Origin: Pirellula sp.
Lineage (GTDB): Bacteria; Planctomycetota; Planctomycetia; Pirellulales; PNKZ01
Reading direction: 5' to 3'
DNA length: 64,000 bases
Assembly: GCA_013822735.1 (NCBI GenBank)
Contig: PNKZ01000012.1
Span: 62,001-126,000, forward strand
The notes under the pieces: model-generated
Databases searched by the model: none
What the model was told of the DNA's origin: nothing
Seen by the model: only the letters and a program-made list of their open reading frames with translations
Position numbers and translations under genes: made by a program
Part shown: positions 44,960 to 58,385 of the stretch, piece after piece
How positions within the stretch are numbered: the stretch's first letter is position 1
Layout: each line of letters opens with the position of its first letter

Positions 44960-46003
44960 TTATTTGGCTGCCGGAGCGTAGATCTGATCGAACGCGGCCC
45001 CTTCGGCGAAGAATTTCGCCTGAGCTTGGTTCCAACCTCCAAACACTTTGTGGACGCTGAAAAGTTCGATCTTCGGGAACGACTTGGAGAATTCGGCGGC
45101 GACCCCTTGGTCGATCGGGCGATAGAAGTTCTTCGCGATGATCTGCTGCCCGGCCGGCGTGTAAAGAAACTCCAGGTACGCCTTCGCGTCGGCCTCCGAC
45201 CCCTTGCGCTTCACGTTGGCATCGACCCACGCCACGAGCGGTTCGGCCAGCACGCTGACCGGCGGATAGACGATCTCCAACGCGTCGCCGGCTTCCTTCA
45301 CTTCAAACTGGGCTTCGTTCTCCCAAGTGAGATGCACGTCGCCGATTCCCTTCTGCGCGAAGGTCGCGGTTGCCGCACGAGCACCCGAGTCGAGCACAGG
45401 CACGTTCTTGTAGATGGCGGTCACAAGCTTCTTGGCGTCGTCGTCCGAACCGCCGCGCTCCAGCACCGATCCCCAAGCGCCGAGTAGGCTCAGCTTGCCG
45501 TTGCCCGAGGTCTTAGGGCTCGGCGTGATGACCGCCACTCCTTCGCGCCCGAGATCCGTCCAATCTTTGATTCCCTTCGGGTTCCCCTTGCGGACGACGA
45601 ACACGATCGTGGAAGAGTAGGGGAGTGAACCGTTCGGTAGCCGCTGTTCCCACTTGTCGGCAATGAGGCCCGCCTTTTGAATGGCGTCGATATCCTGCCA
45701 GATGGCGAGCGTCACGACGTCGGCCGGAAGTCCGTCGACAACTTGCCGCGCCTGGCTCGATGAGCCGCCGTGCGATTGGCGAATTGCGACCTTGCGCCCG
45801 GTCGTCTTCTCGTGGTGCGGAATGAACGCTTCATTGAGCTGCTTCCACAGCTCGCGCGTCGGGTCGTATGAGACATTGAGGAGTTCCAAGGAACCGGATT
45901 CCCCCGTGGGGAATTCCGGGGTCGTGGTATTGCTGCACGACGACAGCGCAACCACGAAAAGTGCGACCAGCGAAGCGGCCATCCGTTGCAACGACACCGA
46001 CAT
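44960..46003 (-). CDS. sbp: Sulfate-binding lipoprotein of the ABC transporter
   Basis: 347 residues from ATG 46003, preceded by GAGGAG; an earlier start at 46072 is unlikely. The N-terminus is a signal with lipobox ALSSC. ELLNVSYDPTRELWKQLNEAF, QSHGGSSSQARQV, DVVTLAIWQDIDAI, NPKTS-like ITPSPKTSGNGK and VDANVKRKGS follow the Sbp/CysP pattern for sulfate or thiosulfate binding. It delivers substrate to CysTW. A lipoprotein rather than a free periplasmic form is inferred from the Cys. Confidence 0.92.
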   Translation of the reverse strand: MSVSLQRMAASLVALFVVALSSCSNTTTPEFPTGESGSLELLNVSYDPTRELWKQLNEAFIPHHEKTTGRKVAIRQSHGGSSSQARQVVDGLPADVVTLAIWQDIDAIQKAGLIADKWEQRLPNGSLPYSSTIVFVVRKGNPKGIKDWTDLGREGVAVITPSPKTSGNGKLSLLGAWGSVLERGGSDDDAKKLVTAIYKNVPVLDSGARAATATFAQKGIGDVHLTWENEAQFEVKEAGDALEIVYPPVSVLAEPLVAWVDANVKRKGSEADAKAYLEFLYTPAGQQIIAKNFYRPIDQGVAAEFSKSFPKIELFSVHKVFGGWNQAQAKFFAEGAAFDQIYAPAAK

Positions 46004-46168
46004 GGGGAGATCTCCTCGATTAGTTACCGCGGACAGCACGTTCATCACTTTGTTTATCGTTATCGTAAACATTCGTATCCAAGTTGAGGCAATGAAGCTA
46101 ACTTATTTTCCGCCATGGCTTTGCGACAACAATCGCCGCGTATGCGGACTACTCAAATACAAGGCTGG

Positions 46169-47770
46169 TTAGCCCGGTGCTGAGGAGCGAAACCTTCGCC
46201 AGTCGAGGCCGAGCGTTCTCATCCGGCCCCGTAATGTGTGCGGATTAATCTGCAAAAGTCGTGCCGCTCCGAAAGGCCCTTCAATCCGACCGTGCGATTT
46301 CCGGAGCGCATCTTCGATATGCCGACTCATCGCTTCGTCCAACGTCGGGAAGTCCCCCGCGTGCGATAGCACGCTCCCGGCAAGATCGGCGCGCTGGGGC
46401 AAAGGAAGTGTTTCCGTGGCCGGGGCGATGCGCAAGGCTAGGCTAGGCGACTGCCCACCCAGCGCTGCCGCCACTTCAATGCGTTTGCCGTCCCCCAAGA
46501 TCACGGCCCGCTCAATCACCGCCGAGAGTTCGCGCACGTTGCCCGGCCAAGTGTAAGCCTCCAGCGCCAGCAGGTCGGCGGGCTGCAAGACCAAGGGAGG
46601 CATCCCGAGTCGCTGCGTCGACCGCTGCACGAAGTGGGCCGCCATGGCGGCAATATCGTGCGGACGCTCCCGTAGCGACGGCAGCCGGACAGGGAACACC
46701 GACAAGCGATACCACAGATCGTGCCGAAAGCTTCCTTCGGCCGTCATCGCCTCGAGGTTCCGATGGGTCGCCGCGACGATGCGCACGTTCACGGTCACCT
46801 GCGATTCGCCGCCGACGCGCTCGAACGTGCCGTCTTGCAACACGCGCAGCAATCGCACTTGGGCGCCCGGCGTCAACTCGCCGCACTCGTCGAGCAACAA
46901 GGTTCCGCCGTCGGCCCGCTCGAACCAACCTTTCTTCAAACCCAAGGCGCCGGTGAAGCTTCCTTTCTCATGTCCGAAGAGTTCCGAGTCGACGAGCTCC
47001 GAGGCGATGGCACCGCAATTCACCCGCAAAAACGGCCCTTTGGCGCGCCCGGAGCGTTCGTGGATGGCCCGCGCAATGACTTCTTTACCGGAGCCCGATT
47101 CGCCGAGGATCAAGACCGGCACGTCGGTGCGCGCTACTTGCTCGACACGCTGCATCACATCGCGCAACCCGGATTGTGCGCCGACGATCGACTCCGTGAG
47201 CCCGACCTTACCGAGCTTCGTACGCAACGACTGGTTCTCCGCTTCGGCGGCCTCGCGGAGAATGCGCAGTTCCCGCTGCCGGCGGTCGTTTTCGACCCAA
47301 ACACCGAACGGCTCCAGCAGATGGCCGACAATCTCGACATGCCGCTCTTGAAACTTGCGGGGCGCATCCGTGGTGAAGATCGCCAAGCCGATCGGGCCGT
47401 TCTCACCTTGCAAAGGTCCGATGACCGCCTCGCCGGTGAGATCCTCGGGAATGGCTCCGGCCGGAAGGTCGTGCAGGTCCCGCAAGTCGCCATGCAGCAA
47501 CGCTCCGGCGCGGCACCAAGCGAGCAAATGCTCAAATTGCGCTTCGGCAAACTCATGCTTACGGGCTTGCGGAGTCGGCGTCGGACGGCAATGCCCGACG
47601 GCGATCGTTTCCAACGAACGCCGCGAAAAGTCGAAGCGCCGAATGAGTACGAGATTGATCGGCATTCGCTGAAACAACTCGGGCGCGGCCGTCGCCACGG
47701 CCTCGCCGATTTCGATATGACGGCAGGCTTCTCGCCAAACATTCAGGAGCAGCGGAGCAAAACGTTCCAT
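46169..47770 (-). CDS. Sigma-54-dependent activator with GAF-like sensor (candidate sulfate-operon regulator)
   Basis: 533 residues. Residues 1-165 look like a GAF sensor, and a short coiled linker (REAAEAENQSLRTKL) follows. The AAA+ core has Walker A GESGSGKE (223-230), a GSFTGA loop (270-275) in place of the usual GAFTGA, Walker B TLLLDE (290-295) and WPGNVREL. A Fis-type HTH (ARLLQINPHTLRGRMRTLGL) ends the protein. It should activate RNA polymerase-sigma-54 in response to a small ligand. It lies 165 bases upstream of sbp on the same strand and divergent from DUF2292, so sulfur control is the natural inference. The A-to-S change in the sigma-54 contact loop is noteworthy but may be tolerated. 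Confidence 0.85.
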   Translation of the reverse strand: MERFAPLLLNVWREACRHIEIGEAVATAAPELFQRMPINLVLIRRFDFSRRSLETIAVGHCRPTPTPQARKHEFAEAQFEHLLAWCRAGALLHGDLRDLHDLPAGAIPEDLTGEAVIGPLQGENGPIGLAIFTTDAPRKFQERHVEIVGHLLEPFGVWVENDRRQRELRILREAAEAENQSLRTKLGKVGLTESIVGAQSGLRDVMQRVEQVARTDVPVLILGESGSGKEVIARAIHERSGRAKGPFLRVNCGAIASELVDSELFGHEKGSFTGALGLKKGWFERADGGTLLLDECGELTPGAQVRLLRVLQDGTFERVGGESQVTVNVRIVAATHRNLEAMTAEGSFRHDLWYRLSVFPVRLPSLRERPHDIAAMAAHFVQRSTQRLGMPPLVLQPADLLALEAYTWPGNVRELSAVIERAVILGDGKRIEVAAALGGQSPSLALRIAPATETLPLPQRADLAGSVLSHAGDFPTLDEAMSRHIEDALRKSHGRIEGPFGAARLLQINPHTLRGRMRTLGLDWRRFRSSAPG

Positions 47771-47911
47771 GTGTGATCCGTTAAATACGACGGCTATGTT
47801 GCATACGATGGAAAAACCATTTTATTCGACGGTTCTGTAGCCGGTAAATCCGAATCTACCAACTCGTCGGCCAGCATTTGCCGTGATTCGTGAGAATCTC
47901 GGCTTTGGCAC

Positions 47912-47926
47912 GGAACTCGCTTTGCA
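47912..47926 (+). promoter_or_regulatory. Tentative sigma-54-like -24/-12 element upstream of DUF2292
   Basis: GG (47912-47913) and GC (47924-47925) are exactly 10 bases apart, with TTTGCA at -12. A consensus TTGGCAC (47905-47911) lies five bases too far upstream. The divergent gene encodes a sigma-54 activator. The match is imperfect, so confidence is low. Confidence 0.3.
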
Positions 47927-47994
47927 AGAGCTACGCCAAAGACGACAGTAAGTTGACAATAATAGTAAACTATCGGCGGCATAGGAACAACACG

Positions 47995-48285
47995 ATGGCT
48001 GCCTCGATTCGAACCAATGCCCGTACGCCGCACCATTCGCGAGAATCGAATATGGCTGAGGAGTTGCCGCCATCGCTAGTTGCCTCGGAAGGAACCGACG
48101 CCTCAGAGCAGCTTGGTTCCGCCGGCGCCGGTTCCAACAGCGACCCGCGCGAGGCGCGTTTGCTCCAAGCTCTGGAGCACGTTCGCCAAGCCCTCCGTTC
48201 GTTGCGATACGGCCAAGTGGTCATCACGGTGCAAGACGGGGTCGTCGTGCAAGTGGATCGAACCGAAAAGACACGGTTACGTTAA
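47995..48285 (+). CDS. DUF2292 (YezD-like) small protein
   Basis: 96 residues from ATG 47995, with AGGA eight bases upstream; an internal ATG at 48052 is possible. The C-terminal half LLQALEHVRQALRSLRYGQVVITVQDGVVVQVDRTEKTRL is a full DUF2292 domain. The N-terminal 40 residues are disordered-looking. DUF2292 genes are, as I recall, often adjacent to sulfate uptake genes, and here the gene is divergent from the regulator-sbp-cysTWA unit. The molecular function is unknown. Confidence 0.8.
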   Translation: MAASIRTNARTPHHSRESNMAEELPPSLVASEGTDASEQLGSAGAGSNSDPREARLLQALEHVRQALRSLRYGQVVITVQDGVVVQVDRTEKTRLR

Positions 48286-48451
48286 ACGCCGACGAAGCAT
48301 GAATCGCTTCGCGGCTTTTGTTTGCCAAGTTTCGCTCACCGGTCTCCCGGAGGCATTGCCTTTCGTTTTTAGGAGCCCGGATATGACTCAAGGAAGATTT
48401 CTACTTCGCGGCAGGAAACGTCCGCATCTTTTCCGCAACCTCGCCGGGGCG

Positions 48452-48532
48452 ATGAGCGATCCTCCTGCGCCCCATGCTCGGGTTGCCTACTCCTCCGCGC
48501 ACCGCAGCTGCTGCTGTTGTCGCATGCGTTAA
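48452..48532 (+). CDS. Short ORF with four terminal Cys codons, candidate cysteine-sensing leader peptide
   Basis: 26 residues (MSDPPAPHARVAYSSAHR, then SCCCCRMR). The codons TGC TGC TGT TGT sit five codons before the stop (48530-48532). A longer in-frame start exists at 48299 (77 aa). The nearest upstream gene is DUF2292, in a sulfur-uptake neighbourhood. A hairpin follows directly at 48545-48571. Polycysteine short ORFs act as cysteine-responsive attenuators in mycobacteria; the same logic is inferred here, not shown. The start has only a weak GGGGC upstream. The next gene downstream is the BON protein at 48678, which has no obvious sulfur role. Confidence 0.45.
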   Translation: MSDPPAPHARVAYSSAHRSCCCCRMR

Positions 48533-48544
48533 CGTTCCGCGCAC

Positions 48545-48571
48545 GCAACTGAACGGTTGAGTTCCGGTTGC
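48545..48571 (+). promoter_or_regulatory. Hairpin directly after the polycysteine ORF
   Basis: GCAAC/GTTGC and GAAC/GTTC stems, separated by a T/CG bulge, enclose a 6-base loop; it begins 12 bases after the stop codon. CGCATGCG at the end of the ORF offers an alternative pairing partner. No T-run follows. Confidence 0.4.
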
Positions 48572-48677: not shown

Positions 48678-49550
48678 ATGGCTACCGCTCCATCCCGACC
48701 GCCGCTTACGAGCGACATGAACCTGCCGCTGATGCACCGCGTCGCGGAGACGCTCATGTCGTTCGACGCAAAGGCGTATCGCGCCATCGACGTCGCGGCG
48801 AGCGGTTCGATCGTCACGCTGCAAGGGCGCGTCGTCGGCGTCGAAGCCCATCGCCAAGCGGTAAGCTTGGCCCGTTCGACCTCCGGCGTTACCGAAGTCG
48901 TCGATCTGCTGCGCGTCACGGCCGCGCGAGGCTCTTCCGTCGATCTTCCGCTCGTGCGCATCGAACCGGGCCATTCGCAATCGACAAGTGCGGCGCAGCA
49001 AGTAGACGAACTGCACCCCCAACCTCGTCGGAATCTCGCGATCGCCGGGCTGCTGAGCGTCATCGTGCTTGCGAGTGCAAGCTCGCTGTGGGCGCTCGGC
49101 GTCGTCAAGTTCGGTGAAGAGGAAAAAGTGATCGTGGCGCCGCCGCGTCCGCGCGTGGTGCCCGCGGAAGGCTCCATTCTTTATGAGGGACGCCCGGCCG
49201 CAGGCGCGCGACTTGTCTTCCATCCCTACGGAGATTACCGCGCCGTACCGCAACGATCTTTCGCCGTGGCCGATTACGAAGGCCGGTTCCATGTTTCGAC
49301 GTTCGGCAGCGGCGACGGCGCCGTGCCGGGCAACTACGTCGTGACCGTCGATTGGATTCCGCCTTGCCCGCCCGGGGGCGACCCCGAGAAGTATTCCGAT
49401 CTCGGCAACGTCGCGCCGAAGCGATTTCAGAATCTCGATTCGACGCCGCTGCGCATCAAAGTCGTCGACACGAACGCCGTCGTGAAACTGCCGCCGCTCA
49501 ACATGAGCCGCGGTTACGGCGCCGGCGACGTCCGCCAACTCCTGCCGTGA
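48678..49550 (+). CDS. BON-domain / single TM / carboxypeptidase-regulatory-like fusion protein
   Basis: 290 residues; AGAGGA precedes the ATG. Residues 12-80 form a BON domain (FDAKAYRAIDVAASGSIVTLQGRVVGVEAHRQAV..GVTEVVD), expected to bind membranes or lipids. A helix at about 115-135 (LAIAGLLSVIVLASASSLWAL) spans the membrane. Residues 160-270 (VVPAEGSILYEGRPAAGARLVFHPYG, GAVPGNYVVTVDWI) are a transthyretin-like carboxypeptidase-regulatory domain common in planctomycete proteins beside DUF1559 genes. The DUF1559 gene follows 93 bases later, so the pair likely works together at the envelope. Confidence 0.72.
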   Translation: MATAPSRPPLTSDMNLPLMHRVAETLMSFDAKAYRAIDVAASGSIVTLQGRVVGVEAHRQAVSLARSTSGVTEVVDLLRVTAARGSSVDLPLVRIEPGHSQSTSAAQQVDELHPQPRRNLAIAGLLSVIVLASASSLWALGVVKFGEEEKVIVAPPRPRVVPAEGSILYEGRPAAGARLVFHPYGDYRAVPQRSFAVADYEGRFHVSTFGSGDGAVPGNYVVTVDWIPPCPPGGDPEKYSDLGNVAPKRFQNLDSTPLRIKVVDTNAVVKLPPLNMSRGYGAGDVRQLLP

Positions 49551-49643
49551 CGCTCCGTTGAGCGTCGCGACCACCGATTCCTGTTTGCGGGGATGAATAG
49601 TCGTTGTTTTTGTTTTTCGTCTTTTTTTGGAGGGGACCGAGTC

Positions 49644-50786
49644 ATGAAGATCTCTTGGAAGTTGCGTCGAGGGAAACGACGCGGGTTTTCGCTGGTCGAG
49701 TTGTTGGTGGTCATCGCGATTATCGCGGCCTTAATCGCCATTTTGTTGCCGGCGGTGCAATATGCTCGCGCTACGGCGAGGCGTTCGACCAGCCAAGCCA
49801 ACTTGCGCAACATTACGTTGGGCATTCTGAACTTTGAAACGGCGAACGGTCATCTTCCCGTCGCCGGCCGCGTGCCCGGCGACACGAAGCCGCGCGCCGG
49901 ATGGATTACGCATATTCTGCCGCAACTTGATCGTCGCGATCTTTACGAACGGTACGACTTCAGCAAAGACTGGTTCGCGCCGGAAAATCTCGCCGTCACG
50001 TCCACTCGACTTCCGGTGCTCCTCGATCCCTCGTCGCCTGCTCAAGATCGCCTCGACGGCAGACCGGAAGCATTTGCCGGGATTGTCGGCGTTACCGACT
50101 ACGCCAACATTCGCGCCGTCGATCAGCGGCTCTTTACGGGAAGTGGCGCAGCGACCGGATCGCCGGGCGTCGACGGACCGAACACTCCGACGACGACTAT
50201 TATCGGCGGCGGTAAAGGATTGGCGACGGGCGGAACCTACGCTGCCCAAAAGACGCTCGGCGCGTTCGTCAACGGCTGGGGAATCGGCGCCCTGGCACCG
50301 AACACGAAGGCTCGCTTGGCCGACATCACGGACGGGCCTTCCCATACGATCTTCCTCGCCGAATCGCATGCTCGGCCGTATCTCTATCAACGGGGCGTAA
50401 AGATCAGTGACGATCTCACGACGGTGCGTGTGAACGGAGGCGGCTGGTCGCGCAACGCGAACGACATTCGCCTTACCGGCTTCAGCAAAGACGGCAAGAC
50501 GCCGATCGGTCCGTGGGGCATTAACGCCGCCAACGGCGTGCAGGTACAAACCTCCGACGGTCAGGCGCCCGGCTGGGTCGGCGGCGGAACACACGCCGAC
50601 GCGGCACGCGACGGCAGCGGCGGCATCTATAGCTTCCACCCGGGGGGCGCACATGTTTCCTTCGGCGACGGCTCGGTGAAATTCTTGAGCGAATTCATCG
50701 ACATCGCGGTGCTCGCCGCCTTGGCGACGCGCGATCAGAACGAACTCGTCGACGACTTCCTCGTGGACAACCCGATCGCTCGCTAG
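49644..50786 (+). CDS. DUF1559 prepilin-like (type IV pseudopilin) protein
   Basis: 380 residues from ATG 49644, chosen for the strong TTTGGAGGGGACC ribosome site and because it puts the prepilin signal at the start: RRGKRRGFSLVELLVVIAIIAALIAILLPAVQYAR (cleavage before Phe of FSLVE). The rest is the DUF1559 domain, including ADITDGPSHTIFLAESHARPY and the C-terminal FHPGGAHVSFGDGSVKFLSE, the H-X9-DG tail. Planctomycetes carry many of these; they are thought to form surface or periplasmic pseudopili. The gene ends at a strong terminator. Confidence 0.92.
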   Translation: MKISWKLRRGKRRGFSLVELLVVIAIIAALIAILLPAVQYARATARRSTSQANLRNITLGILNFETANGHLPVAGRVPGDTKPRAGWITHILPQLDRRDLYERYDFSKDWFAPENLAVTSTRLPVLLDPSSPAQDRLDGRPEAFAGIVGVTDYANIRAVDQRLFTGSGAATGSPGVDGPNTPTTTIIGGGKGLATGGTYAAQKTLGAFVNGWGIGALAPNTKARLADITDGPSHTIFLAESHARPYLYQRGVKISDDLTTVRVNGGGWSRNANDIRLTGFSKDGKTPIGPWGINAANGVQVQTSDGQAPGWVGGGTHADAARDGSGGIYSFHPGGAHVSFGDGSVKFLSEFIDIAVLAALATRDQNELVDDFLVDNPIAR

Positions 50787-52472: not shown

Positions 52473-52747
52473 CCGTTCATCGTACCGGCGGCGATCGGAG
52501 CGGCAACGCGATGCGGGGCAGGGGTGTTTGCCGCCGGCCAAAAATCGCCTGGATTGCGAGCATCCGGGTTGAGGATAATGCGGCGTGATTCGCTGTGATT
52601 TCCCACGCCTTGGGCGAATGCGCCGGGGGCGAGGAGCATCACGACACTAATGAGCGGCCTGGCCGCAGGAGTTTTCCGTGCCCTGCTCACTTATTCGCTA
52701 CGGAACGACGATTTTGCGGCGTCCTCCACATCCGCCCCAACGGGGCA

Positions 52748-52770
52748 CCTTCTCCCGCGAGGGGAGAAGG
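52748..52770. repeat. CCTTCTCCC palindromic repeat element (REP-like)
   Basis: CCTTCTCCC-GCGAG-GGGAGAAGG is a perfect 9-bp inverted repeat with a 5-base loop. The same kind of CCTTCTCCCGCGAGGGG text occurs as dispersed intergenic repeats in many planctomycete and proteobacterial genomes. Confidence 0.65.
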
Positions 52771-52804
52771 GAGGCATCTCTCACGGCGGATCGTCGGCGA
52801 TTAC

Positions 52805-53143
52805 GCGCATTGCAAAATCGACGTAAGTGGTGCGCACTAAATTGTGCGATTGCGTACAAAAGCACCCCCGTTGTGCGCGTCGGAGCGCTTACCAACAAGG
52901 CCGCGCACGCCGCACTCGGCGCAGTGCGCACGGGACTCGGAGCGATCCGAGCACTTACGTCGATTCCGAGAATCGCCGACGGCGCTAATTGCCGCGAACG
53001 GCGCGCTACGTCGATCGAGGCGCGTTGCGGAGTGCGCAATCAGACCGAAGTCGCGCACATTAGGGAGACGGGCGTCGGGCGCACCGCGCACGAAATTGTC
53101 GAACCGGCGCACGAAGATGCGCTTACAAAGTGCGATGCGCGCA
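52805..53143. repeat. Dense cluster of TGCGC/GCGCA words in non-coding DNA
   Basis: GCGCA or TGCGC begins at 52805, 52831 (palindromic TGCGCA), 52874, 52903, 52919, 52925, 53033, 53053, 53079, 53086, 53107, 53118 and 53136, which is 13 sites in 339 bases against roughly one expected for this composition. Two copies of GCGCACGAA are 21 bases apart (53086, 53107). Confidence 0.6.
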
Positions 53144-53217
53144 TCAAAACGCGGGAGGCGCCATGTGAAGCGATCCCTGCCGTCGCAAGCGTCGTCGCGA
53201 TCCGTTCGTCCCGAGTT

Positions 53218-54876
53218 CTACTTCGCCGGCTCGCCGTGCGATTGTTCGGCGGCACGCGCCGCCTTGAGCTGCTGAAGCGTCTCTTCCATGATCGTCGTCG
53301 GCACGAAGCTCGGCGGGAACGAACGGGGAGGAAACTCCTGAAACGTTGCGACGAACTTGCCCACTTCGTCCATCGCGCCGTAAACGTTGCCGACGTGGTT
53401 CAAGATCCAATCCCAATAGGTATTGGAGGTGATATCGGCCCGTTCGAACGGATCTTGATACAGGTTGTAAATCTTCGCGAGTCGCAGCTTTGTGAACGGC
53501 TCGGCCCACACTTGCAGCGTCCCCGGCGCGCGTTGCTCGGCATAAACGTACTTGTAGTCTCCTTGCCGAAACGCCACGAGCAGGCCGTCGTCGTCGGCGT
53601 AGAAGAACTTGTCGCGGGCACTCTTCACGCCGCGCTCGTTCGATACGCCGCCGCTCACGGCCCTAAGAAATGCGGATTGATCGTAGCCGTCGAGGTGCAC
53701 CTTGTAGGTCCGGCCGTTCGCCTCGTAGCCCTGCTTGCACTTGCCGACGATATCCGGCTCGCCGGCGAAAGCGCAGAGCGTGGGAATCCAATCGTTGTGG
53801 CTCATCAACTCGTTCGTCACGGTGCGGGCTTTAATGACGCCCGGATAGCGGACCAAGCAGGGAGCGCGGAAGGCCCCTTCCCAGTTGGTGTTCTTCTCGG
53901 AACGGAAGTGGGTCATCGCGCCGTCGGGCCAGGAGTTCATGTGCGGGCCGTTGTCGCTGGTGTAGACGACGATCGTATTCTCGGCGATGCCCAGGTCGTC
54001 GAGCGACTTCAGAATCTCGCCGATGGTCTCGTCGTGCTCGATCATGCCGTCGATGTATTCGCTGTCGCCGTGCCGGTAGCGGCCGCGATGCTCGGCGCGG
54101 ACGTGCGTACGAAGATGCATGCGGGTGCTGTTGAACCAGCAGAAGAACGGCTTGCCGGCCTTATGCTGCCGCTGCATAAAGTCGATCGCGGCGGCCGAGG
54201 TCTCGTCGTCGATCGTTTCCATCCGCTTCTTCGTGAGCGCGCCGGTGTCTTCAATGGTTTGCTTACCGATTTTGCCGAAGCGCGGATCGACGGTCTCGTC
54301 GTCGACGTCGGTCGCTTTGCACTTCAGCACGCCGCGCGGGCCGAACTTCGCGAGGTAGGCCGGATCTTTCGGGTAGTCGGGAAGCTCGGGCTCTTCCTCG
54401 GCATTGAGGTGGTAGAGGTTGCCGAAGAACTCGTCGAAGCCGTTGACCGTGGGAAGCGACGGATTGCGATCGCCGACGTGGTTCTTGCCGAATTGGCCGG
54501 TAGCGTAACCGAGGCTCTTGAGAAGGCCGCCGATCGAAGGGTCGAGTTGGCTCATGCCCATCGGCGCTCCGGGGAAGCCGACCTTCGTGAGCCCGGTGCG
54601 AATGCCGTGTTGTCCGGTGAGAAACGCGGCGCGACCGGCGGTGCACGACTGCTCGGCGTAGTAGTGCAGGAAGCGAACCCCTTCGTTGGCGAGGCGATCG
54701 ATGTTGGGAGTGGTGTAGCCCATCAAGCCGTCGCTATAGGCGCTGATGTTTGTGACGCCGATGTCGTCGCCGAAGATCACGAGGATGTTCGGCTTGTCGG
54801 CAGCTTGAGCGGAGCAGGCCGAGCCGATGAGAATCGCGGCGATCAGCGACAACAGGTAGCAAGAGGTGCGATTCAT
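53218..54876 (-). CDS. Arylsulfatase-family sulfatase
   Basis: 552 residues with a signal peptide (YLLSLIAAILIGSACSAQAA). Metal site GDDIG (36-40) is followed by the formylglycine motif C78-T-A-G-R with AAFLTG after it. This is the C-T-A-G-R variant rather than C-x-P-S-R, which is found in a large bacterial arylsulfatase subgroup. FGKNHVGDR supplies the active-site Lys/His, TRMHLRTH and VVYTSDNGPHMN the later metal ligands and Asn. Maturation requires a formylglycine-generating enzyme (not in the window). It presumably desulfates an organic or polysaccharide sulfate outside the cytoplasm. It is last of three minus-strand genes with the Gly-rich and NTF2-like genes. Confidence 0.9.
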   Translation of the reverse strand: MNRTSCYLLSLIAAILIGSACSAQAADKPNILVIFGDDIGVTNISAYSDGLMGYTTPNIDRLANEGVRFLHYYAEQSCTAGRAAFLTGQHGIRTGLTKVGFPGAPMGMSQLDPSIGGLLKSLGYATGQFGKNHVGDRNPSLPTVNGFDEFFGNLYHLNAEEEPELPDYPKDPAYLAKFGPRGVLKCKATDVDDETVDPRFGKIGKQTIEDTGALTKKRMETIDDETSAAAIDFMQRQHKAGKPFFCWFNSTRMHLRTHVRAEHRGRYRHGDSEYIDGMIEHDETIGEILKSLDDLGIAENTIVVYTSDNGPHMNSWPDGAMTHFRSEKNTNWEGAFRAPCLVRYPGVIKARTVTNELMSHNDWIPTLCAFAGEPDIVGKCKQGYEANGRTYKVHLDGYDQSAFLRAVSGGVSNERGVKSARDKFFYADDDGLLVAFRQGDYKYVYAEQRAPGTLQVWAEPFTKLRLAKIYNLYQDPFERADITSNTYWDWILNHVGNVYGAMDEVGKFVATFQEFPPRSFPPSFVPTTIMEETLQQLKAARAAEQSHGEPAK

Positions 54877-54951
54877 GGGGTGCTCCTGAACTTCGCGGAA
54901 ACGATTAAAGCGGACGAGCCATCGCGATTAGCGACGGAGTTGCCCGCGGCA

Positions 54952-57144
54952 CTACTTGTGAAACGTCAACTGATCCGTTTGGCCGGTCGGCGAGAAGACG
55001 AGCGTCTGGTCGTCGGTGAGCTGGATCGTGCTGAGCATCGTGCCGCCCGAGTTGGGCTGCATCACGAGGTTGTTGCCGCGCACGACGTAAGCGCCGGTGA
55101 CGCTTTGCGGCTTATCGCCGCGCGAGAACGACCACGTAAAAGCGTCGTCCTTGTCGAGCGTGAGCGTGAATTGGCCGCCGTCTTGGTCGGCTTTCCACGT
55201 TCCTTCCAGTTTCTCCAGCGGATAGGCGGGCTTATCGAGATCGGTCGGCGCGGCGGCTACCGGAGCCGAAGCGGGGTCGGGTTGCGGTCCGTACATCTTG
55301 AGCAAGTCGACCGAGAGTTGATCCTTGGGTTGAATCTCGATCACTTGCTTCCACATTTCGACGGCCGCGTCTTTGTGGTCGGCGGTGAGGTATTGATAGG
55401 CCAAGAGAAAGCGTTCGTCGGCCGACGACGGATCGGCCGAGGCGGCGGCCTCGAGCCTGCGGAGCTGCGCCGTGTAAACCGCTTCGCTGGAATAAAGACT
55501 GACCATGGTCGTCCAATCCCAACCGGGTCCGGCGGCGAGCACGGCATGAATCGTGGCGGCCGATTCACGATAGCGCCCCAGCGCAAAGAGGCACAAGCTA
55601 CGGAACTCGTTGATCGCCGCATCGCGCGGAGCAGTCTTCAAGCATTGATCGGTAAGCTGCAACGCTTGCTCGAACTGGTCGCTCTTAAACGCGGCGCGCG
55701 CTTGATCGAATGTTTGCGTCAGCGGATCGGAAGCCGGATCGACGGCGGCATTGTCGGCGGATTCGTACGCCGGGTCGCCGGTGATCGGTTGGTCGTACGA
55801 GGCGACCGGTTGGTTGTCGACGTAGACCGGCTGATTGTCGTAGTAGGGGTTGTAGTAGCTATCGACGCCGAACGTGTAGGCCACGGCGTTAAGCCCCCAC
55901 ATCGTCGCCCCGAACGCCATCGCGACGGGATACTGATTCCACAAATAATCCCAACGACCGTTGCCCCAGCCGGGACCGTAGCCGTTGTACCAACCGCCCC
56001 ACGAGCGCGACCAATAACCGGCGGGTCCGGCGGCGTGAGCCCAACCTACAGCGCCGTTCGGGCCGATCGCACCGCCGTGTCCCCAGACGTTGCCGTTGGG
56101 TCCCCAAGCGGTCGTGCGTCCGTACGCGCCGTTCGGACCGATGCCGGTCGAGTGTCCCCAGTGGCCGCCGTTGGGGCCGTTGACGCCCGTGTGGCCCCAA
56201 TAACCATTGGGTCCCCAGAAGCCGATGTGATTGATGTCGCCGCCGTTGGGACCGGTCCAAGAGTGCCAATCGCCGTCGCCCCAATTCTTCTGCAGGCTAT
56301 CGAATTGGCCGGCGAGGTCGTCGTGGCGCTGCGGAACGGAATCAGCGGAGAACCGCGTCCCTGCGCCTCCGGCACCGAGTCGATCGGCCGCGCCGCCGTT
56401 GATGCGTTCTCCGGCGCCGCCGGCTCCGAGGCGATTGGCCGCGGCACCTGCGGCCGGACGCGCGCCGCCGCCGCCAAGGCCGGGGAGAGTTGCGGTGTTG
56501 GCACCAGGGCGAAAGTTACCGGCGCCATCGGGATTGATGCGATCTCCGGCACCGGGACGATTTGCCGCGCCGGGAAGCTGCGCAGGACGGCCCGCTCCGG
56601 AAAGGCCCCCGGGTTGAAAGTCACGCGTGATCGCGCCTCCCTCGCCGATCTGCGGGCGACCACCAAGATCGAGTCCGCCTCCCTCGCCAGGCATGTGAAC
56701 CACTCCGGCACCATTGCCGAAGCCGCCGCGATCGCCCAGGCCTGCTCCACCGCCGAAGCTGTCGCCGCCACGGAAGCCGCCGTCACTGAAGCCACCTGCG
56801 CCACCGAAGCCGTCGCCGCCGATCGAAGGTCGATCGGGCATAGAAGGACGAAAGCCGCCGCCGGAGAGTCCGCCACCGCCGAAGTTGCCGCCTCCTCCGC
56901 CGCCGGGAAACCCACCACCGCCAAAGCCTCCGCCGCCGCCTGGGAATCCGCCACCACCGCCGCCGAAACCTCCGGAAGGCATGCGTGCTCCACCACCGCC
57001 GCCACCAAAACCTCCACCACCACCGCCGCCCATACCTCGACCGCCGCCGCCACCGCCGCCGAAGCCGCGGCTCCACAACGGTTCGACCAAGTAAGCCGAT
57101 ACGACGAGGCAACAGCCGAGTTTGAAAAGAATGGTGCGTTTCAT
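54952..57144 (-). CDS. Secreted Gly-rich / WGPNG-repeat / TPR-like protein
   Basis: 730 residues. A signal segment (LFKLGCCLVVSAYLVEPLWS) is followed by about 120 residues of (G)n-F/R/M low complexity, then a Gly/Ala/Arg region with repeated RLGAGGAGER-type units. Residues about 285-380 hold a WGPNG-type repeat of roughly 12 residues (WTGPNGGDINHIG, WGPNGYWGHTG, GIGPNGAYGRT and others). A short Tyr-rich link leads to a helical TPR-like part (FDQARAAFKSDQFEQALQLTDQCLKTAP, ADERFLLAYQYLTADHKDAAVEMWK). A C-terminal beta domain follows (LEGTWKADQDGGQFTLTLDKDDAFTWSF). The protein looks envelope-associated; no enzyme motif is seen. Confidence 0.75.
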   Translation of the reverse strand: MKRTILFKLGCCLVVSAYLVEPLWSRGFGGGGGGGRGMGGGGGGGFGGGGGGARMPSGGFGGGGGGFPGGGGGFGGGGFPGGGGGGNFGGGGLSGGGFRPSMPDRPSIGGDGFGGAGGFSDGGFRGGDSFGGGAGLGDRGGFGNGAGVVHMPGEGGGLDLGGRPQIGEGGAITRDFQPGGLSGAGRPAQLPGAANRPGAGDRINPDGAGNFRPGANTATLPGLGGGGARPAAGAAANRLGAGGAGERINGGAADRLGAGGAGTRFSADSVPQRHDDLAGQFDSLQKNWGDGDWHSWTGPNGGDINHIGFWGPNGYWGHTGVNGPNGGHWGHSTGIGPNGAYGRTTAWGPNGNVWGHGGAIGPNGAVGWAHAAGPAGYWSRSWGGWYNGYGPGWGNGRWDYLWNQYPVAMAFGATMWGLNAVAYTFGVDSYYNPYYDNQPVYVDNQPVASYDQPITGDPAYESADNAAVDPASDPLTQTFDQARAAFKSDQFEQALQLTDQCLKTAPRDAAINEFRSLCLFALGRYRESAATIHAVLAAGPGWDWTTMVSLYSSEAVYTAQLRRLEAAASADPSSADERFLLAYQYLTADHKDAAVEMWKQVIEIQPKDQLSVDLLKMYGPQPDPASAPVAAAPTDLDKPAYPLEKLEGTWKADQDGGQFTLTLDKDDAFTWSFSRGDKPQSVTGAYVVRGNNLVMQPNSGGTMLSTIQLTDDQTLVFSPTGQTDQLTFHK

Positions 57145-57240
57145 GGGTCGGGTCCTAAGCCAAATGGTTCGGCAATGAATGTGTTCGAGGAAGCACCGCG
57201 TGTAGCAAGCGCGGCCAGGGAAACCGACTGTTGCGCCGGA

Positions 57241-58170
57241 TTACTTCTTCGCGGCGGGCACGGTCGGTTGCGGCGGCTGACGCACGACGCGACTCGAGAT
57301 CGCGGGCAGACTTTCGTCGCCGACGATGCGCTGCTGTTGTGCAATCGTGAGCGTGTCGACGCCGTCGCGAACATACGTCAGCACCGACGAAACGCGTGTT
57401 CCGGCCGCATTGACGCCGTGCATCGGCACCGACCAAGAACCGTCGGCGCCGCGGGCCCACCAACCTTCGCCGGCTCCGCCGTCGGCGTCGAAGACCCAAG
57501 AGCGAAATTGTTTGCGCTCGGCATCCCAGCCTACGCGATGCGTACCGCTGCGCGACTTAGGATCGACGCCGCGCAAGGTAAAACGACTGACCAGCGCGTT
57601 GCCGTCTTCGGACCAGGTCCACTCCGTGTCGAGGCTGCGGCCGCCGGAATCTTCGCGCCATTTGCCGACCAGCCAGGCGAGTTCCTGGAGGCGATCGTGC
57701 GACGAAACCTCGGGCTCCGACAATTCACGCACGCTCGCGACGAGCCACGAGTCGTCCGACTGGTGAATGTGCAGGGCCGTGTATCTTGTGCGCGAGGCGA
57801 CTCCCTCGGCAGCCGCGGGTCGGAACGTCGACACGCCCTCTTCCACCACCACGCCCGCGGCGATCGGACGAATCGAAGTAACGGCGATGGTCATCGCGCC
57901 TTTCGGCGCTACGGCGAAGCGAGCGGCATACTCGGCCTCGATTGCTTTGCGACCGTGGAAGACGGTGCCGTCGGAATCGATGCATTCGGCTTCCGGCGTG
58001 AAGAGCAGGGCCAGCGCCGCGGCGTCGCGATCGGTGAACGCCTTCGCGAACAGTTCGGCCGATGCCGAAATTGCGGCTTGCAGTTGCTTCGCATCCGGTG
58101 GATCGGCTGCAACACCTGCGGTTGCGAAAAGAGATACGGCCGCGAATGCGGCGAGTCGTCGCCAGTTCAT
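57241..58170 (-). CDS. Exported NTF2/SnoaL-like (DUF4440/SgcJ-type) protein with a second lipocalin-like domain
   Basis: 309 residues; signal peptide MNWRRLAAFAAVSLFATAGVA. Residues 28-150 form an NTF2-like cone (AELFAKAFTDRDAAALALLFTPEAECIDSDGTVFHGRKAIEAEYAARF) of the TIGR02246/SgcJ type. Residues 160-300 (LQELAWLVGKWREDSGGRSLDTEWTW..RFTLRG) are a beta-rich domain like DUF1579. The same two-part layout recurs in secreted planctomycete proteins of unknown function. It is first in the minus-strand set that continues with the Gly-rich protein and the sulfatase. Confidence 0.75.
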   Translation of the reverse strand: MNWRRLAAFAAVSLFATAGVAADPPDAKQLQAAISASAELFAKAFTDRDAAALALLFTPEAECIDSDGTVFHGRKAIEAEYAARFAVAPKGAMTIAVTSIRPIAAGVVVEEGVSTFRPAAAEGVASRTRYTALHIHQSDDSWLVASVRELSEPEVSSHDRLQELAWLVGKWREDSGGRSLDTEWTWSEDGNALVSRFTLRGVDPKSRSGTHRVGWDAERKQFRSWVFDADGGAGEGWWARGADGSWSVPMHGVNAAGTRVSSVLTYVRDGVDTLTIAQQQRIVGDESLPAISSRVVRQPPQPTVPAAKK

Positions 58171-58385
58171 GGTGGAGGTGCTCGCAGAGAGTACGACGAA
58201 GGCGAAACAGCGCGGTTAATATAGCAACCCGCCGACGGCAATGCAGGGTGCACACGCATCATCAAATGAGAATGCAATGACGCGTTCACGTACCGCGCAA
58301 CGGCCGAGCGTTCCCCGGCATTGGAATCGACGGAAACTGTGTTCAAATCGCACTATCACTCATTTTAGAGGGCCTGCGTCGGCAC

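Follow-up and report, generated by a model that had tools for sequence, protein, structure and literature searches.

A putative cysteine-sensing leader peptide and a conserved upstream hairpin in a proposed planctomycete sulfur regulon

Why should a short open reading frame (ORF) that ends in a run of cysteine codons lie between a DUF2292 gene of a sulfate-uptake locus and a gene encoding a BON-domain protein? The question arises in a 64-kb stretch of Pirellula sp. DNA (64,000 nucleotides, hereafter the window), in which the first-pass annotation had proposed a 26-codon, cysteine-sensing ORF followed by a hairpin. Pfam matches bear out the surroundings that it described, as DUF2292 is located upstream of the ORF, the sigma-54 activator and solute-binding protein genes are divergent from it, and the BON and DUF1559 genes follow downstream. 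The short ORF with its contiguous Cys codons is positioned among sulfur and cysteine genes, and cysT/W-like genes are located beyond the solute-binding protein gene. The DUF2292 protein also matches the OscA sulfur-starvation model with E=9e-10, a score under that model's cut-off. The features discussed below are as follows:

44960-46072, minus strand: extracellular solute-binding protein (sulfate uptake; PF13531, E=1e-37)
46169-47770, minus strand: divergent sigma-54 activator (PF00158, E=4e-66)
47906-47921, plus strand: sigma-54-like promoter TGGCACGGAACTCGCT (GG-N10-GC), putatively serving DUF2292 and the genes after it
47995-48285, plus strand: DUF2292 (OscA-like) gene (PF10055, E=2e-16)
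48330-48360, plus strand: conserved hairpin, the candidate sulfur-regulon RNA element, with core GCTCACCGGTCTCCCGGAGGC (models R1 and R2; covariation)
48371-48375, plus strand: AGGAG, Shine-Dalgarno sequence of the short ORF (its spacing is constant across other leaders)
48383-48532, plus strand: putative leader ORF of 49 codons, MTQGRFLLRGRKRPHLFRNLAGAMSDPPAPHARVAYSSAHRSCCCCRMR and stop (open frame, and placement matching related leaders)
48509-48520, plus strand: four consecutive Cys codons, TGC TGC TGT TGT
48678-49550, plus strand: BON-domain protein, the proposed first regulated gene (PF04972, E=7e-8)
49593-50786, plus strand: DUF1559 protein, in a unit with the BON gene (PF07596, E=5e-43)

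Further downstream, positions 52678-58224 (plus strand) hold a mechanically called open frame of 1848 residues that is partly low-complexity and may be antisense to real genes.

The cysteine run is present as annotated: TGYTGYTGYTGY occurs once in the 64-kb window, where 0.05 occurrences are expected, and it is the sole run of four Cys codons there. The 26-codon frame (48452-48532, plus strand) does read MSDPPAPHARVAYSSAHRSCCCCRMR up to its stop, but the start assigned to it fares less well, as an earlier in-frame ATG at 48383 extends the ORF to 49 codons. This ATG is preceded at 8-12 nt by AGGAG, and the conserved hairpin begins 53 nt upstream of it (at 48330). It is the likelier start, because the leaders of related genomes begin equally far from the conserved upstream element. 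When the 49-residue peptide was used directly as a protein-search query, only noise was returned outside the genus: what is conserved is the tail and not the peptide itself.

The upstream hairpin, which the first-pass annotation had missed, emerged from a comparison of the locus in 57 related genomes with DUF2292 as the anchor. In G001, G002 and G003 (same genus) and G006 (same family), DUF2292 is followed by a short ORF and then by BON, and in these four genomes and the window the pattern GCTCACCGG-N3/4-CCGGAGGC is found just upstream of the short ORF. The pattern recurs behind DUF2292 across the order, and at some of these loci CUGG/CCAG replaces CCGG/CCGG. A covariance model built from 15 DUF2292 loci (R1) scores the window hairpin at 3.3e-5 and returns three clear hits in the window's genome (the window itself and the 5' leaders of cysK and of a family-2B encapsulin gene), as well as further copies in relatives. 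A second model (R2, 44 sequences) finds a match in 35 of the 296 genomes of the order at E≤0.001, and in its alignment pair 11-22 is C-G in 22 sequences, U-A in 13 and U-G in 9, and is never broken. In a sample of the phylum, 2 of 246 genomes match at E≤5e-4, one of them being the window's own, and an exact-pattern scan of 84,980 genomes returned planctomycete MAGs plus scattered single matches that resemble chance; a phylum-wide or general bacterial motif was rejected on these grounds. The hairpin spans several families of one planctomycete order and is found essentially nowhere else. Searches of Rfam gave no cis-regulatory match at the element, either in the window at gathering scores or in 14 loci at up to E=5. 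DUF2292 was considered as a hairpin-binding protein, and its gene is absent from two hairpin-bearing genomes (G005 and G054). In about ten of the 70 leaders the hairpin is preceded, 35-43 nt upstream, by another one with the same flanks and a different inner stem (CCCG/CGGG, CTCAC/GTGAG). In a joint alignment of 13 rows two pairs flip between G-C and C-G; these rows were chosen for their ability to pair, which makes the pairing percentage partly circular.

The genes behind the hairpin center on sulfur. The set of 70 leaders was curated by hand, with the removal of weak model matches that fell within coding genes. In a hand tally of the first recognized neighbors, 26 of the 70 copies are located behind DUF2292, a figure that is in part circular, DUF2292 loci being the source of R1; no such circularity affects the remaining 44 copies. 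They precede family-2B (SrpI-type) encapsulin genes (10 of 70), cysK (7, one of these through BON), cysE (1), a Cys-rich protein without a family (5), PSCyt or 2-oxoacid-type genes (6), DUF1559/dockerin genes (5) and other genes (4), or reside in DUF1559-sulfatase operons (6). Sulfur starvation induces the family 2A encapsulin of Synechococcus, which carries a cysteine desulfurase (PMC8049743), and family 2B encapsulin systems with cysteine desulfurase cargo are known (PMC8346489). Two arrangements may be recorded here. A Cys- and Met-rich protein of ~155 residues is encoded directly behind the element at L112:4557-5021 (minus strand) and L128:4568-5044 (plus strand), and also in L117, L127 and L130; it has no Pfam match (nor, for the L112 copy, an NCBIfam match) and is possibly a cysteine or metal store. 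At L113:9103-9772, two successive units of element plus Cys-tailed ORF and a third, weaker element occupy ~700 bases before a DUF1559-sulfatase operon.

Do cysteine tails recur behind the hairpin? In G001, G002, G003 and G006 the peptides differ from one another except at their ends (RRRCCCRRHLACLS, SSCRCRR, RRSCRRRRRAD and ACACCCCRPTTTR, respectively). To define the ORFs by rule, we took the ATG nearest to 52.5 nt from the element and allowed at most 80 codons, which yielded 30 leaders with a short ORF. Cysteine makes up 17.8% of the last 8 residues of these ORFs as compared to 3.2% of the rest, an excess that was never reached in 20,000 residue shuffles (p<5e-5), and 22 of the 30 have a Cys within the last 8 residues, leaving about a quarter without a C-terminal Cys. 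Removal of the five ORFs in which a Cys codon overlaps the downstream start (ATGY) leaves 19 of 25 with Cys, at 19.9%. With L226, whose start was picked with its Cys tail in view, included in all three counts, terminal Cys occurs in 12 of 59 out-of-frame control segments of the same DNA, 20 of the 23 occurrences of TGYTGY are in frame, and the tail codons are TGT 42 : TGC 18 versus 60 : 317 in the ordinary genes of the loci (p = 1e-20); the rule-only tail count is TGT 39 : TGC 18. The rare codon UGU therefore accounts for about 70% of tail Cys codons, whereas its share in the ordinary genes at these loci is 16%. The polycysteine ORF is genuine, and it does not stand alone. In L115 (14698), L225 (4211), L114 (40747) and L128 (9438), the short ORF runs into the following gene, whose ATG shares bases with a Cys codon of the ORF (ATGY), an arrangement that may reflect coupling or a trivial effect of the overlap. 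Behind DUF2292 in L038 and L037 (G019 and G035), Cys-dense short frames are found near the start codon (MFRCCRCRDALRL and MFCCSRCCRCRRL), a layout unlike that of the end-tailed leaders, and a hairpin copy was not found in L038.

The position of BON is clarified by MAG SJ810, a genome that was reached by DNA pattern alone and lies outside the model-building set. It contains two divergent leaders, each with the element, an ATG led by a Shine-Dalgarno sequence ~50 nt further on, and a Cys-tailed ORF. Leader 1, which ends in ACCCPQAGLALCCCPQSC (longer excerpt, FLACCCPQAGLALCCCPQSC) and uses TGT for 6 of its 7 Cys codons, is followed by a BON-like gene and DUF1559, and leader 2, which ends in SCCRSRFAFR (longer excerpt, FASCCRSRFAFR), precedes DUF2292 and cysK. 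As matching leaders precede BON-DUF1559 and DUF2292-cysK in the same genome, the puzzle that BON had posed is answered. Cys-tailed ORFs are succeeded by BON in SJ810, in G054 (BON-cysK) and in five genomes from the window's own family; judged by this gene order, BON travels with sulfur genes. The first-pass annotation had offered three options (control of the DUF2292-side mRNA, a sulfur-responsive BON/DUF1559 unit, or a stand-alone sensor), of which the second fits best, given the recurrence of BON behind Cys-tailed ORFs in these genomes.

What might the ORF act upon? The hairpin that had been noted 12 bases past the stop is no more stable than shuffled sequence (z = 0.13), no consistent extra structure was found after 15 Cys-tailed ORFs (mean z -0.57), and this downstream hairpin was set aside as chance. 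Intrinsic terminators after or overlapping the short ORFs show no excess over shuffled sequence in the 30 leaders. Rho-dependent termination or translational coupling is a more likely output than an intrinsic terminator, since no output structure was found after the ORF. Forcing the hairpin in folding calculations produced no clear change in the accessibility of the Shine-Dalgarno sequence or AUG. In five cysK/cysE leaders (L078, L114, L115, L120 and L240), the 3' arm of the hairpin overlaps the 5' arm of a strong terminator, an overlap not seen in the window copy. As this arm is shared with the terminator, the predicted structures suggest that the hairpin is an antiterminating form in the cysK/cysE leaders. 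The cysK leaders have the hairpin and lack a Cys ORF, and in one family no short ORF accompanies the hairpin; hairpin and Cys ORF therefore need not work together.

These data bear on three other explanations. A chance open frame, or an effect of a DNA or RNA repeat, is barely credible as the source of the Cys run: CCCC plus a nearby stop does arise by chance elsewhere in the genome, where other matches are no commoner than in a reversed control and the one inspected (C4:111758) sits within a membrane-protein gene, but the run in question holds its orthologous position in five genomes, is frame-specific and recurs in other families, and the in-frame bias has already made a chance origin very unlikely. 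It is also quite improbable that the ORFs encode functional small Cys-rich proteins such as metal or sulfur carriers. The Cys-rich tails, and the presence of a separate, longer Cys-rich protein behind the hairpin, would agree with such a role; however, ORF lengths range from 6 codons (MNLTCC and MTLTCC) to 75, almost nothing is shared beyond the cysteines at the very end, no family is matched, and a bias toward a rare codon is unexpected for a product. Because of this range of lengths and the lack of other conservation, the short ORFs fit leader peptides rather than products.

A less remote explanation, though still an unlikely one, is that the hairpin alone, as a riboswitch or when bound by a protein, regulates transcription or the next start codon, with the ORFs as by-products whose Cys tails tune translation. 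The hairpin is indeed the common denominator, it stands directly before cysK, encapsulin or DUF1559 in several genomes, and it overlaps terminators, yet its acting alone leaves unexplained the convergence of unrelated short ORFs on UGU/UGC codons that are terminal and in frame.

We consider it likely instead that the terminal, mostly rare Cys codons of the leader peptide measure the supply of cysteinyl-tRNA within a hairpin-marked planctomycete sulfur regulon, a sensor role that we infer from the anatomy of the leaders. The recurrence, frame, position and codon choice of the tails lend good support to the Cys-sensing ORF of the first-pass annotation, which had overlooked the regulon hairpin upstream of it. 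Initiation is probably sulfur-controlled as well, as DUF2292 has sigma-54-like sites upstream of it both in the window and at many related loci, and the window also encodes a divergent sigma-54 activator. A second sigma-54-like site, TGGCGTAGCTCTTGCA (47922-47942, minus strand), faces the activator gene, and G001 has the same site. In the proposed mechanism, sulfur limitation would lead to transcription from the putative sigma-54 promoter. Under a shortage of cysteine, ribosomes would stall towards the 3' end of the ORF, the nascent RNA would stay covered or coupled, and RNA polymerase would thereby reach BON-DUF1559. With ample cysteine, ribosomes would dissociate at the stop codon, and the GC-rich stretch that follows, being untranslated, would be lost to termination or poor translation. 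The hairpin would be a second, separable switch, which if stabilized would be an antiterminator in the cysK and cysE leaders. The chances appear evenly balanced that the regulon is controlled in two tiers, namely by an undescribed, sometimes tandem class of hairpin RNA that responds to a ligand or protein and by interchangeable Cys-tailed leader peptides that respond to Cys-tRNA.

In the literature that we searched, neither a cysteine attenuator nor a sulfur-regulon RNA is described from planctomycetes, and if the two-tier reading is true, the phylum would gain its first reported amino-acid attenuation system. Through the element, cysteine supply is tied to DUF2292/OscA, BON, DUF1559, sulfatases and family-2B encapsulins, a group that includes several proteins of unknown function, and the predictions are directly testable by codon-swap reporters. 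In classical amino-acid attenuators, such as the trp and his leaders, the regulatory codons are located near the end of a short leader ORF. The terminal codons described here are alike in this respect, whereas no terminator/antiterminator pair was detected behind the short ORFs. Ribonucleic antiterminators of the BglG/LicT type are ~30-nt hairpins with an asymmetric internal loop that overlap the 5' arm of a terminator, depend on a protein and control sugar genes. The planctomycete element resembles them in its ~30-nt size, its asymmetric internal loop and, in the cysK/cysE leaders, its overlap with the terminator 5' arm, but its sequence is unrelated as far as known and it accompanies sulfur rather than sugar genes. 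The Rhodopirellula-1 candidate RNA has been reported from planctomycetes and Proteobacteria (Weinberg et al. 2010, PMC2864571); planctomycetes are common to both, whereas our element was not found in Proteobacteria, and the hairpin, though it may correspond to Rhodopirellula-1, is likely, short of proof, to be new. The nearest known system is the mycobacterial polycysteine attenuator, which is described as a leaderless short ORF that carries consecutive Cys codons and precedes genes related to sulfur (Canestrari et al. 2020, as presented in PMC9031893 and PMC13236596). As far as those accounts go, the two share the short, contiguous-Cys ORF before sulfur genes and a proposed sensing through ribosome speed. 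Unlike the leaderless mycobacterial ORFs, the window ORF, with its start site read from sequence, has an AGGAG, an upstream conserved hairpin and DUF2292, and the planctomycete ORFs use mostly UGU and often lie inside an operon after DUF2292. The best reading is that the leader is a variant of the mycobacterial attenuator equipped with a sulfur-regulon RNA element, which would extend Cys-run leader ORFs from leaderless mycobacterial forms to Shine-Dalgarno-led ones in a distant phylum.
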